Origin: a virus
Reading direction: 5' to 3' (one strand)
Length of the DNA: 23,152 nucleotides
Virus record (IMG/VR): IMGVR_UViG_3300038361_000102
Location: 1 to 23,152 of that record
Under the pieces are notes generated by a model. That model was not told where the DNA came from. It made no database searches and saw only the letters and a list, made by a program, of their open reading frames with translations. This document shows positions 1,362 through 23,139 of this stretch, piece by piece. Numbering within the stretch: the stretch's first letter is position 1; the number at the start of each line of letters is the position of its first letter. A program made the translations under genes and the position numbers.

Positions 1362-3287
1362 TTAATTTATTATATGCCATTCCGAAGACCCGGCAATTAT
1401 TTGAATACAATTATATTTTCCTAATGTTTGAGTTGCTTGACCATCTATTGTCTCCGCTCCATTTCCATCAATGGTAACTGTGTATGTAGAATCAATGCTT
1501 TTAATATAGTATGTCCGGCCTGTTATCCCTGATAATGCAGGGAGTGTTATTGTTACTGTGTTGCTTGAACCATCGCAAATTATAACCTCCTCATCTGCTG
1601 CCGTATAATCAGCAGTTTTTGAAACTATTTCTTTTGCAGCACTTCCGCCATTGTGCAAATTAGAAGTCGGTGTCGTTCCTATCCCTACATTTTGCGAGGT
1701 GTCTATTTTAACAGCTTCAATTGCATCTGTATAAATTCCTAATTCATGATTCGTTCCTGTTCCAACCGCTCCGGCCGTGTTAAATGCTTGCACCAACACG
1801 GTAATCGAGGTCGTGGAGTTTTCTACGGTGATAGCTGGGGTGGTTGCTGATTTAATGTGCAATATTGTGGATGGTGTGGATTCTCCTATTCCTACGTCTC
1901 CTTTTAAAATTGTTTTTAAAATATTATCGTCTCCTAATGTTACAGAATTACTTCCATTTCCTGTTGCATTATATCCAAATACATTTTCATTAGTAACGCC
2001 TTCAGCTGAGACCTTTGTATTTGTTCCAACATATGTAGAATTATTAAAAACCTTTGCGCCTGTTGAACCATCTGCTAAATATCGTGCAGCTTGATACCCA
2101 ATTGCTTGAAAATTACTGCCCGACGTGTTAGAATATGCAGCTCGATACCCAATTGCTTGAAAATTACTGCCAGACGTGTTAGAATATGCAGCTTGATACC
2201 CAATTGCTTGAAATTTACCGCCCGACGTGTTAGAATATGCAGCTTGAGAGCCAATCGCCTGAAAATAACTGCCCGACGTGTTAGAATGTGCAGCGAAATA
2301 CCCAATTGCTTGAAAATTACCGCCCGATGTGTTAGAGCGTGCAGCGAAATACCCAATTGCTTGAAAATTACCGCCCGATGTGTTAGAATATGCAGCAGCA
2401 TAACCAATCGCTTGAAAATTACCGCTCGACGTGTTAGAATATGCAGCTCGATAACCAATCGCCTGAAAATTACTGCCCGACGTGTTAGAGCGTGCAGCTT
2501 GATAACCAATTGCCTGGAAATAGCTGCCAGATATGTTCACATATGCAGCTAAATAGCCAATCGCCTGAAAATAACCGCCAGATATGTTCACATATGCAGC
2601 TCGATAACCAATTGCCTGGAAATAGCTGCCAGATATGTTCACATATGCAGCTTGATAACCAATTGCGTCATTCTTTTGAGCAGTAGTCATTGCATTACCA
2701 GCACCAATACCAATTATTGTATTATACCTCCCATCAGTGCCAGCTGTATTAACTAAGTTTCTTCCACCTGTGCCAAAAACCACAGAGCCTAATAATGCGA
2801 CTTGATCAGGAAGATAAATAATAGATGTTCCATTGATAGCGATTTCACCATATACATCTAAAGCCTCCGAAGCTGTCGATCCGCCTATTGCTATTTTCCC
2901 ATTCCCTGCATCAATTAAAATAGAATCTGTTTTTATTAATGTTGTCGGAGTTATGGTCATTCCGGCTATTGTGCCTCTATCTATTATTGTTCTTTGCCTT
3001 ATATTTTCATACTGTGCAAATGAAATAACAGAGTAAACCGGAAAAGAAGATGTAAAATCATGGCTGTTAATTGATAAAGAAGTTGCATCTGCAACGGAAT
3101 CAGCCGATAAAGTGAATGTATCACTTTCTAAAGTGTGTGGATTTGTAATTGTTAATTCATCCCCGGAATAAAGAATTTCATCAATAATAGTTAATATTGA
3201 AATTGTTGTTGTAACACCAAAAAGCACTTCGTCAATATGTGAAATAGCATCAACCTCGATTAATTCTTTGTAATTTTTTACAGCCAT
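1362..3287 (-). CDS. Repeat-rich tail fibre / receptor-binding protein
   Basis: A 641-residue protein, very likely the host-contact fibre. Residues 1-130 look like a beta-rich attachment part. Residues about 130-200 carry typical fibre strands (KIAIGGSTASEALDV; NTIIGIGAGNAM). Residues 207-402 are a tandem array of 17-residue units of the form QAIGYxAAxSNTSGxNF, like the stacked coils of YadA-type trimeric adhesin heads. Further fibre-type segments follow (DVGIGESTP; NVGIGTTP), then a compact C-terminal beta domain (about 560-641), the likely receptor-binding tip. The ATG overlaps the stop of the connector gene by one base (TAATG). Unlike trimeric adhesins of bacteria it has no signal peptide or membrane anchor, consistent with a virion protein. 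Confidence 0.8.
   Translation of the reverse strand: MAVKNYKELIEVDAISHIDEVLFGVTTTISILTIIDEILYSGDELTITNPHTLESDTFTLSADSVADATSLSINSHDFTSSFPVYSVISFAQYENIRQRTIIDRGTIAGMTITPTTLIKTDSILIDAGNGKIAIGGSTASEALDVYGEIAINGTSIIYLPDQVALLGSVVFGTGGRNLVNTAGTDGRYNTIIGIGAGNAMTTAQKNDAIGYQAAYVNISGSYFQAIGYRAAYVNISGGYFQAIGYLAAYVNISGSYFQAIGYQAARSNTSGSNFQAIGYRAAYSNTSSGNFQAIGYAAAYSNTSGGNFQAIGYFAARSNTSGGNFQAIGYFAAHSNTSGSYFQAIGSQAAYSNTSGGKFQAIGYQAAYSNTSGSNFQAIGYRAAYSNTSGSNFQAIGYQAARYLADGSTGAKVFNNSTYVGTNTKVSAEGVTNENVFGYNATGNGSNSVTLGDDNILKTILKGDVGIGESTPSTILHIKSATTPAITVENSTTSITVLVQAFNTAGAVGTGTNHELGIYTDAIEAVKIDTSQNVGIGTTPTSNLHNGGSAAKEIVSKTADYTAADEEVIICDGSSNTVTITLPALSGITGRTYYIKSIDSTYTVTIDGNGAETIDGQATQTLGKYNCIQIIAGSSEWHIIN
2082..2669 (-). 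repeat. 51-bp tandem repeat array inside the fibre gene
   Basis: Eleven complete 51-base units plus a partial twelfth encode 17-residue repeats. The three units nearest the N-terminus share AAYVNISG, while the next eight share SNTSG or NTSS. This split suggests that the array grew by duplicating blocks. The unit length is a multiple of three, so gain or loss of units keeps the frame and only changes fibre length. The repeats also create spurious long open frames in other frames. Confidence 0.9.
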
Positions 3288-17263: not shown

Positions 17264-18328
17264 TTAGTTTATTAAAACACTATCTATATTATAAACTTCT
17301 TTCATTCTGTTTATTATTATTTGGCAGTTTTTTGGTTCTATTTCAATCATATAGCATTTTCGATTTAATTGCTCGCATGCTGCCATTGTTGATCCAGAGC
17401 CACCAAAATAATCTAACACATTTTCACCTTTATTTGTGTAATGTTCAATAAATGTGCTTGGTAAGCTTACTTTTTTTGCTTGTTTATGCCCAAAATCATC
17501 TGTCATAAAAACACCTTTACTGCTTTCAATAAGTGTTGAAAAACCATCCTTTAGGTTATTAAATTTATTTTTGCCGTTTAAAAATTCTGCAACATAATCA
17601 CACCTCGACATAGGTGATTTATTTGAAATTAGATGTGCATTCCTAAAATCTACTGTGTATAATCTTGAAAAAACGTCTATATGTTTTATTGTGAAGTTTA
17701 TTAGATTTTTTTCGCTATTCATGTAAAATATATGTCCATTACATATATCAAAGTCAAAGTCAAAGTCAAAGTCAAATGGTGGGTCTGTAAACACCATGTC
17801 TGCCTTTTGCCCATCTAAAAGCTTTTTGCAATCTACTTGGTTAGTTGCATCACCACAAATCAAATGATGATTTCCTATTTTAAATAAATCGCCTATTTTG
17901 ATATTTGTTTCAATCTCTTCAGGAATACTATAATCATCCTCCTCTTTTACTTTAACACTTTCAAACTCCGATAAATCAACTCCCCACTCTTCCAATTTAT
18001 CACTTTCCCAACCATCCAATAAATCAAAATCCCATTCACCGAAACTAACATTATCGGCTATAATAAAACGTTGTATTTCGTCTTTACTTAGCTTTGTGGC
18101 TGCTTTAGTCCATTTAACTGGTATTTCTTTATATCCTAATTCTTTAAGACAAATTAATCGTTTGTTCCCACCTAAAACATACATTGTTTTGGGGTCGTAA
18201 ACCAGTGGGCGAAGTTCGAGCATCTTTGGAAATTCTTTGATGCTATTTTGTAACTTCGCCAGATCATTGAATTTTTGCGGGTTGTTCGGATTCAATAATA
18301 AATTTTTCCCTGTTTTTTCTAAAACCAT
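17264..18328 (-). CDS. ParB-domain / DNA methyltransferase fusion
   Basis: 354 residues. Residues 1-120 form a ParB/Srx-like N-terminal domain, with the GGNKRL motif at 53-58. Residues about 140-354 are a beta-class N4/N6-type methyltransferase: motif IV TDPPF (181-185), a helix region, then HKQAKKVSLP (281-290) and motif I VLDYFGGSGST (304-314) followed by the acidic MIEIEP. Such fusions are common in phages and probably methylate phage DNA, giving protection from restriction. No restriction enzyme is visible, so it is an orphan. It is the first gene of the late operon. Directly after DPPF is a (DF)4 insertion encoded by a 6-base microsatellite. Confidence 0.85.
   Translation of the reverse strand: MVLEKTGKNLLLNPNNPQKFNDLAKLQNSIKEFPKMLELRPLVYDPKTMYVLGGNKRLICLKELGYKEIPVKWTKAATKLSKDEIQRFIIADNVSFGEWDFDLLDGWESDKLEEWGVDLSEFESVKVKEEDDYSIPEEIETNIKIGDLFKIGNHHLICGDATNQVDCKKLLDGQKADMVFTDPPFDFDFDFDFDICNGHIFYMNSEKNLINFTIKHIDVFSRLYTVDFRNAHLISNKSPMSRCDYVAEFLNGKNKFNNLKDGFSTLIESSKGVFMTDDFGHKQAKKVSLPSTFIEHYTNKGENVLDYFGGSGSTMAACEQLNRKCYMIEIEPKNCQIIINRMKEVYNIDSVLIN
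17748..17776 (-). repeat. 6-bp microsatellite inside the methyltransferase motif IV region
   Basis: Four complete TCAAAG units and a partial fifth on the plus strand; on the coding strand these encode the repeated Asp-Phe dipeptides right after the catalytic DPPF. Unit length keeps the frame, so slippage would only lengthen or shorten the loop. Confidence 0.85.
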
Positions 18329-18457: not shown

Positions 18458-18829
18458 TTATAACCTTTTGAGCAATTTTATAACCTTTTTCAAAACGTAG
18501 GTTATAAGGTTAATACGGCCGCTGTGGTGGCGGGTTTCCGACGATTTTAGTCGATTTCTTAACTATCTGATTATCAAGTAGTTTAAACCTTTTACTATAA
18601 ATTAGTTAAATTACATATAATATGTAAAAAAAGAAGTACATATATTTTTTCCCTATATAGCAAGGTAGGGGTTTAAGGTTACAAGGTTAATACGGCCGCT
18701 GTGGTGGCGGGTTTCCGATGATATGTTAAAAAAGGAGAAGGTTACAAGGTTAATACGGCCGCTGTGGTAGCGGGTTTCCGACGATTGAAAACTGTTAATT
18801 TTGTAACCTTTTTCAAGAGAAGGTTATAA
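18458..18829. repeat. Iteron-like array: seven copies of AGGTTAYAA
   Basis: The 9-base motif AGGTTAYAA or its complement TTRTAACCT occurs at 18458-18466 (minus), 18478-18486 (minus), 18499-18507 (plus), 18676-18684 (plus), 18739-18747 (plus), 18801-18809 (minus) and 18821-18829 (plus). Two neighbouring pairs are inverted and set 20-21 bases apart, about two helical turns: 18478/18499 (a 9-base stem) and 18801/18821. Three copies form the start of the 47-base repeats. This density in a gene-free region suggests a protein-binding array, such as an origin or operator cluster. Confidence 0.7.
18499..18785 (+). repeat. Three 47-bp GC-rich direct repeats with internal hairpin
   Basis: Copies at 18499-18545, 18676-18722 and 18739-18785 differ at only three positions. 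They begin with AGGTTAYAAGGTTAATACGG and continue with a GC-rich part ending GGGTTTCCGAYGAT, in otherwise AT-rich DNA. Inside is the hairpin CCGCT-GTGGT-AGCGG in copy 3; copies 1 and 2 have G in place of A, leaving a G/T pair that would be G-U in RNA. Spacers are 130 and 16 bases, so this is not a CRISPR array. Likely a protein or ssDNA-structure site. Confidence 0.85.
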
Positions 18830-18908
18830 TTAGAATGATTCTAAATAAGGAATTGCCTTTAATTAGAATGATTCTAAATAGCAAAGTGCTTATTTAGACT
18901 GATTCTAA
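18830..18908. promoter_or_regulatory. Three 15-bp palindromic operators (7-1-7 type)
   Basis: Copies at 18830-18844 and 18863-18877 are the perfect palindrome TTAGAAT-G-ATTCTAA; the third, 18894-18908 (TTAGACT-G-ATTCTAA), has one mismatch. Spacings are 33 and 31 bases, about three helical turns. They lie just upstream of the promoter-like boxes for the rightward genes. The 7-1-7 layout and TTAGAA-N3-TTCTAA core are like sites of Fur-superfamily regulators (Fur, PerR, Irr), but a phage repressor could use the same geometry. Confidence 0.75.
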
Positions 18909-18932: not shown

Positions 18933-18952
18933 TATTTTTGTAACTATTTTTG
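18933..18952 (+). promoter_or_regulatory. Two overlapping promoter-like -7 boxes for rightward genes
   Basis: TATTTTTG occurs at 18933-18940 and 18945-18952, each fitting TAnnTTTG, 59 and 47 bases before ATG 19000. I see no good upstream TTG element at the right distance, so a bound activator, or relief of repression at the three palindromes just before, might decide activity. Confidence 0.4.
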
Positions 18953-22816: not shown

Positions 22817-23017
22817 ATGAAATACATCAAGAAAATAAAAACAACACTAAGGAAAACCAATAAACATGCTGGCGAAATGGATGATGTTTTTAATACAAAA
22901 AGCGAACTTAACTCAGTTGACCTTAGCTTTTACGAGAATGGGATGTTGATATTTGTAGAAGATGAAAACCAAGTTTATAAAATATACCAAAAAGAAATAT
23001 TAACATGCGAAAACTAA
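22817..23017 (+). CDS. Small protein paired with an RHH-like gene
   Basis: 66 residues. The N-terminus is very basic (KYIKKIKTTLRKTNKH), and the second half has a strand-rich segment (NGMLIFVEDENQVYKIYQKEIL). The stop lies 13 bases inside the next gene, so the two are coupled, and both share a strong promoter. The arrangement resembles small toxin-antitoxin or regulator pairs, but I do not recognise a toxin family. It might also be a host-derived regulator or partner of the RHH-like protein. Confidence 0.6.
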   Translation: MKYIKKIKTTLRKTNKHAGEMDDVFNTKSELNSVDLSFYENGMLIFVEDENQVYKIYQKEILTCEN

Positions 23018-23139
23018 TAGACATACCAGAAGAAAACAAAGTACTTGAAAAGCTTCAAATACTTGCGGTAAAAGCAAAGAAAGACCTTAAAAACTACATA
23101 CAGGACTTACTTGTAGAACACGTGCGGGGGCAAAAATAA
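23005..23139 (+). CDS. Ribbon-helix-helix-like DNA-binding protein
   Basis: 44 residues, shorter than usual gene-finder limits. The beginning MRKLIDIP reads as the DNA-contacting strand of a ribbon-helix-helix dimer; residues 11-24 (NKVLEKLQILAVKA) and 26-40 (KDLKNYIQDLLVEHV) are the two helices, with the typical L/K-x-(L/Y)-I-x-D-L-L pattern of Arc/MetJ-type antitoxins and regulators. It overlaps the preceding gene by 13 bases and ends 13 bases before the window edge. Autoregulation at the 22762-22793 promoter would be expected. Confidence 0.6.
   Translation: MRKLIDIPEENKVLEKLQILAVKAKKDLKNYIQDLLVEHVRGQK

Follow-up and report, generated by a model that had tools for sequence, protein, structure and literature searches.

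A phage of Bacteroidota carries three Fur-type boxes in front of its replication genes and is, as judged from these boxes, one of a broad set of Bacteroidota phages with the same box at promoters. We give a probability of roughly one half to the reading that a Fur-family protein, most likely that of the host, binds the three boxes and controls the early promoter, a reading in which both the identity of the binder and the sign of the control are inferred. Collectively, the sequence data suggest that viruses of Bacteroidota may tie their gene expression to the iron regulator of the host.

Three Fur-type boxes upstream of the replication genes

The stretch of DNA analysed here, referred to as the window, spans all 23,152 bases of an IMG/VR record and represents a linear phage fragment. 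An intergenic region of ~670 bp separates two divergent gene blocks. The leftward block holds a ParB-like methyltransferase gene, the terminase and the virion genes, and the rightward block encodes a small protein, a 129-aa protein, a 796-aa primase/helicase and further small proteins (Table 1). A second contig (L003), 99.3% identical to the window over 8 kb, adds ~4.2 kb on the right with HNH, VRR-NUC-like, YqaJ-like and AAA-type genes. The primase and the capsid have their relatives in phages of Flavobacterium, Polaribacter, Bacteroides and Elizabethkingia, by which the host group is Bacteroidota; the closest relatives of the terminase are from phages of other phyla. No nucleotide match to the phage was found among GenBank phages. 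Three G+C-rich direct repeats of 47 nt, 94-96% identical to each other (18500-18546, 18677-18723 and 18740-18786), lie in the AT-rich intergenic region and adjoin inverted repeats of AAGGTTACAAGGTTAA; they have no Rfam match and may constitute an origin of replication or an array of regulatory sites. On the minus strand, positions 1362-3287 encode a tail-fibre-like protein with many tandem NFQAIGYQAA-type repeats.

Table 1. Positions of the boxes, candidate promoter elements and genes discussed in the text. Positions are those of the window unless a contig is named.
Feature	Position	Strand	Remarks
Fur-type box 1, TTAGAATGATTCTAA (extended TAATTAGAATGATTCTAAATA)	18830-18844		centre 18837; matrix score 26.6
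Fur-type box 2, TTAGAATGATTCTAA	18863-18877		centre 18870; matrix score 28.5
Fur-type box 3, TTAGACTGATTCTAA (with flanks TTATTTAGACTGATTCTAAATAA)	18894-18908		centre 18901; matrix score 30.4
Candidate -7 element, TAATTTTG	18796-18803	+	upstream of box 1; consensus match only
Candidate Bacteroidota -7 element, TATTTTTG	18933-18940	+	+32 from box 3 centre; consensus match
Second candidate -7 element, TATTTTTG	18945-18952	+	+44 from box 3 centre; consensus match
ParB-like/DNA methyltransferase gene	17264-18328	-	start of divergent leftward block
Rightward operon gene 1, 83 aa	19000-19251	+	weak DUF3784 similarity, under curated cut-off
Rightward operon gene, 129 aa	19714-20103	+	PHROG of unknown function
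Primase/helicase-like protein, 796 aa	20134-22524	+	BT4734-like N, PriCT_1, DUF5906
44-aa protein, ribbon-helix-helix-like by eye	23005-23139	+	no significant Pfam match
Fur-family protein, identical in Freya_1 and Danklef_1	L229 4082-4510; L230 44806-45234		C-terminal mini-domain

The first-pass annotation had described two perfect palindromes and one with a single mismatch, spaced by three turns of the helix, and all of this holds at the positions in Table 1, with start-to-start distances of 33 and 31 bp (about three helical turns). In box 3 the similarity runs beyond the 7-1-7 core (TATTTAGACTGATTCTAAATA). Compared with two exact sites and three with at most one mismatch in the real window, 200 dinucleotide shuffles of the whole window gave one and five, respectively, in total, and 2000 shuffles of the local 501 nt gave two matches with at most one mismatch. 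These shuffles, together with the zero counts of control palindromes described below, rule out a chance origin of the boxes. When up to three mismatches were allowed, the window held 8 sites against 5.4 expected, which is no enrichment; the cluster of boxes alone stands out. The boxes are intact in L003, which is too similar to the window to serve as independent evidence for them. As RNA, boxes 1 and 2 fold with about -2 kcal/mol each and box 3 with -5.7 kcal/mol; mutual pairing of all three reaches -26 kcal/mol, as is expected of tandem palindromes in any case. Since the single folds are weak and neither a terminator-like site nor an Rfam family was found at the boxes, we rejected an RNA hairpin or terminator, a reading that is also at odds with the many boxes elsewhere that sit between divergent genes.

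The window sites fit a 21-bp box, TATTTAGAATNATTCTAAATA, of Bacteroidota chromosomes. A scan for tandem copies in the genomes of 84,980 species returned 77 loci, and the tandem boxes of Bacteroidota among them precede FeoAB, TonB-dependent receptors (assigned by Pfam), a solute-binding protein and an amine-oxidoreductase read as protoporphyrinogen-oxidase-like. Exact single boxes on chromosomes were found before SufS, SufB, SufA-like and FeoA genes, as read by eye. In Riemerella anatipestifer, the predicted Fur box is ATTTAGAATTATTCTAAAT according to the results section of the published study, the abstract of which gives another, E. coli-like sequence, and binding of promoter fragments by the purified Fur protein was reported from gel shifts (PMC5609570). 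With a scoring matrix built from 53 chromosomal Bacteroidota boxes, the three window sites (Table 1) scored on a par with the chromosomal boxes (median 27.4), whereas 60 shuffled windows reached 19.0 at most. Since the initial search pattern did not include the flanks, their agreement counts as additional evidence. As a motif, the window palindromes are firmly identified, in core and flanks, as Bacteroidota Fur-type boxes, which bears out the original reading of a Fur-superfamily site. PerR and Irr, put forward alongside Fur as possible regulator types, are not favoured: the chromosomal copies of the box examined in this phylum were at iron and Fe-S genes, and the Irr-type pairs found are rhizobial. 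Irr is an alphaproteobacterial regulator. The tandem pairs of Rhizobiales precede one gene type, presumably mbfA-like, which fits Irr, and the window phage, with its Bacteroidota capsid and primase relatives and Bacteroidota -7 elements after the sites, does not point to an alphaproteobacterial host with Irr. Eggerthellaceae and their relatives (L030, L048, L074, L081 and L098) carry tandem copies of TTAGAGTAACTCTAA, at several loci near a gene that is MerR-like by eye; these palindromes belong to a different regulator with a similar half-site.

Recurrence of the box and its distance to the -7 element

Scanning viral contigs for tandem pairs gave 25 stretches, including the two contigs of the window phage. 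The exact 21-mer was present in at least 120 viral stretches, and two control palindromes of the same composition were each found in none; on this scope, the recurrence of the box across phages is firm. The dereplicated phage set comprised 140 sites in 113 loci. At 134 of these sites the centre of the box fell outside ORFs of at least 100 aa, which make up 72% of the DNA. Several phages of differing gene content carry three to seven boxes each (six in G006 and seven in G033, near matches counted), and many boxes are perfect palindromes over at least 21 bp. Genes near the boxes include those for terminase, portal, head maturation protease and tail fibre. Most of the other phage boxes precede virion or late genes, whereas those of the window precede early (replication) genes, a difference that we counted against the host-Fur reading. 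Among cultured phages, Freya and Danklef of Polaribacter have three boxes each, before portal, tail and fibre genes, and Arctus_1 of Leeuwenhoekiella has weaker ones. Elizabethkingia phage TCUEAP1, which resembles the window phage in gene order, has one weak site only and no triple array, which likewise counts against this reading. Footprinting via relatives of the primase turned up only two near-identical contigs, and no close box was found in the part of MW202828 examined. Among the open-access papers searched, none dealt with Fur boxes at phage core promoters. Four viral contigs (L006, L016, L022 and L028) have tandem TTAGAATNATTCTAA pairs that lack the TAT/ATA flanks, and the binder of these pairs may differ from that of the other phage boxes.

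Bacteroidota promoters are characterised by a -7 element, TAnnTTTG. Early promoter-like boxes had been proposed just after the palindromes; the sigma-70 version of this proposal fails, as such promoters are no more frequent than chance at the window boxes, and the proposal stands for Bacteroidota -7 elements, candidates for which start at 18933 and 18945. If the candidate upstream of box 1 were used, the boxes would fall downstream of its start. Measured from the palindrome centre, TAnnTTTG was found at +23 to +26 in 42 of 280 oriented phage sites compared to 2 of 120 chromosomal sites, and at +11 to +13 in 10 of 120 chromosomal sites compared to 1 of 280 phage sites, counts that describe a tendency, since kinship among the phages reduces their independence and the majority of phage sites lack TAnnTTTG at both distances. 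In 24 of the 42 phage cases the element starts at exactly +24. The genes downstream of the sites in these 42 cases fall into 12 unrelated families, of which the two largest account for 19 and 9 cases, and many of the ten chromosomal cases are related Algoriphagus loci. A minor peak at +44 among the phage boxes includes the window itself, and the late boxes of G033 have a common spacing of +17. At four loci with boxes between divergent genes (L122, L138, L153 and L210), a -7 element is present on either side, one at about +24 and the opposite one at +44 or +45, a difference of two helical turns.

On chromosomes the box fills the promoter spacer, with the -7 element starting at about +12. Phage boxes tend to precede the -7 element and to cover the -33 region, in which no TTG element can be made out. 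The window boxes do not have the in-spacer position either (Table 1), a position that is a trait of the repression design and lies outside the definition of the box. The phage spacing, mostly about +24 compared to +12 on chromosomes, does not match a repression design taken over from the host. As the window boxes lie upstream of the -7 candidates (box 3 centred at about -44 or -56) and not in the spacer, recruitment of the polymerase or an operator that senses copy number may explain them better than simple occlusion. This geometry suggests that the protein at the phage boxes may help or gate the polymerase at a set distance, unlike the spacer occlusion at host iron genes.

Candidate binders of the phage boxes

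In the reading that we prefer, the three boxes would form the control region of the early (replication) promoter. Fur-family dimers, most likely iron-loaded host Fur, would occupy adjacent boxes on the same face of the helix and set the activity of the promoter just downstream, with either of the two -7 candidates behind box 3, and early expression would thereby track the iron state of the host or its free Fur. Binding of host Fur and an iron response at the window boxes are plausible: Fur is encoded in 38 of 40 genomes sampled from the host class, and we know of no other owner of the site in Bacteroidota. No protein family was present in all box-bearing phages when 22 genomes were clustered, and one common site without a common phage regulator points to a host protein. 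In line with the earlier statement that no Fur-type gene is in the window, no PF01475 match was found in the window or in L003, which together leave the phage sequence incomplete. Further points against host Fur are the geometry, which is unlike that of chromosomal Fur-box promoters, the centre base of the phage boxes (see below), the incomplete phage sequence and the phage-encoded Fur-family protein of two cultured species.

The same two cultured species bring in the alternative that ranks next, in which a phage-encoded regulator (a captured Fur DNA-binding domain or, in other phages, an unrelated protein) acts as an iron-independent promoter switch; we regard this as unlikely, though a serious contender. 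Freya and Danklef combine their three boxes with a Fur-family protein of their own (142 aa, PF01475 E = 3.5e-9), encoded shortly before the gene for the terminase small subunit; in this protein, typical Fur metal-site residues were not evident by eye. In G013, a distant Fur-like protein is encoded upstream of a terminase gene and shares a mini-domain with the Freya protein, placed after the winged helix in Freya and before it in G013. The spacing of +24 (or +17 in G033) without a TTG -33 element resembles activator-dependent promoters. The centre base also sets phage and chromosomal boxes apart, being G or C in 119 of the 140 phage sites compared to 24 of 46 exact chromosomal boxes (p = 1.4e-5), so the binder or its preference may differ from chromosomal Fur. 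However, Fur matches were limited to 3 of 42 box-bearing phage records, with Freya and Danklef above the curated cut-off and G013 below it, and neither the window phage nor its L003 extension has one. A profile search for further members of the small Fur-like phage protein family returned only its seeds, adding no convincing member, and no common alternative regulator was found across the phages. A weak match in Cellulophaga phage Nekkels, a 70-aa winged-helix-like protein, was rejected as not convincingly Fur. At L117 4042-4464 the mini-domain is followed by a Fur-like winged helix, the reverse of the Freya order. It also stands alone near terminase genes in related box-bearing phages (L127 4103-4264, L165 8911-9066, L169 180-341 and L226 8836-9006), as a small protein with the conserved sequence MIEIxNGRVFVDGKETxDPxLIGYAVLDFAE.

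The in-phase tandem palindromes between divergent blocks also look like repressor operators, and they could be ordinary operators of a lysogeny repressor or of the 44-aa ribbon-helix-helix-like protein, the match to the Fur box being coincidental. Among the small proteins encoded in the known phage sequence, this 44-aa protein alone is a DNA-binding candidate, and in G006 a gene weakly similar to helix-turn-helix proteins follows a box pair at a distance of 10 bp. We consider coincidence very improbable, as the agreement with the Fur box spans 21 bp and is common to phages of differing gene content; moreover, neither a repressor nor an integrase was found in the known 27 kb of the phage (window and L003), the genome of which is incomplete. 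Least probable of all is that the boxes are mainly a decoy: host Fur would be titrated by the replicating genome, host iron uptake or phage promoters would be derepressed, and genome copy number would thereby be sensed. In favour of this are the titration of Fur by boxes in multicopy, well established in the laboratory, the many perfect palindromes of at least 21 bp and the up to seven boxes per genome, but the preferred spacing to the -7 element before 12 unrelated gene families points to promoter function, and a pure decoy would need no such spacing.

For the phages at large, we put at slightly less than even odds the proposal that many Bacteroidota phage lineages have a class of promoter in which a perfect Fur box precedes the -7 element by a preferred distance and on which host Fur or a captured phage copy would act as an expression switch, tying the timing of infection to host iron or, through Fur titration, to genome copy number. 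If Fur binds, widespread phages of Bacteroidota would read the iron state of their hosts, and iron supply would act on phage production via a defined promoter element. The original single-phage proposal is partly supported; recurring in many phages, mostly at late genes, the element would represent a wider phenomenon. The box followed by TAnnTTTG may also serve as an annotation aid for the starts of transcription units in Bacteroidota phages, whose promoters are difficult to predict. The element is easily recognised and is present in cultured phage-host pairs.

Comparison with known systems

The Fur box of Riemerella shares with the window sites the 7-1-7 palindrome, the AT flanks and an intergenic position close upstream of genes. 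In the Bacteroidota chromosomal arrangement, the box lies in the -33/-7 spacer, whereas in the window three in-phase copies of the predicted site precede the -7 element, at phage replication genes. The Irr-type box of Rhizobiales, TTTAGAA-N3-TTCTAAA at mbfA-like genes, has a near-identical core and also occurs in tandem pairs, but it belongs to an alphaproteobacterial regulator, and the primase and capsid relatives of the window phage indicate Bacteroidota hosts. The Forsetiviridae phages Freya and Danklef resemble the window phage in having three boxes and a Bacteroidota host, with their boxes in intergenic positions before virion operons. They are not close relatives of the window phage, encode a Fur-family protein of their own and have single boxes at late genes.

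Iron repressors act at prophage-borne toxin genes, Fur at stx1 and DtxR at corynephage tox. To our knowledge, iron-repressor control in phages has been limited to such passenger toxin genes and has never been described for replication or virion genes. Like the arrangement proposed here, the stx1 and tox systems have a host iron regulator acting on phage-carried DNA. Their sites, however, serve a passenger toxin gene, whereas those of the window lie at replication genes and most of the other phage boxes at virion genes.
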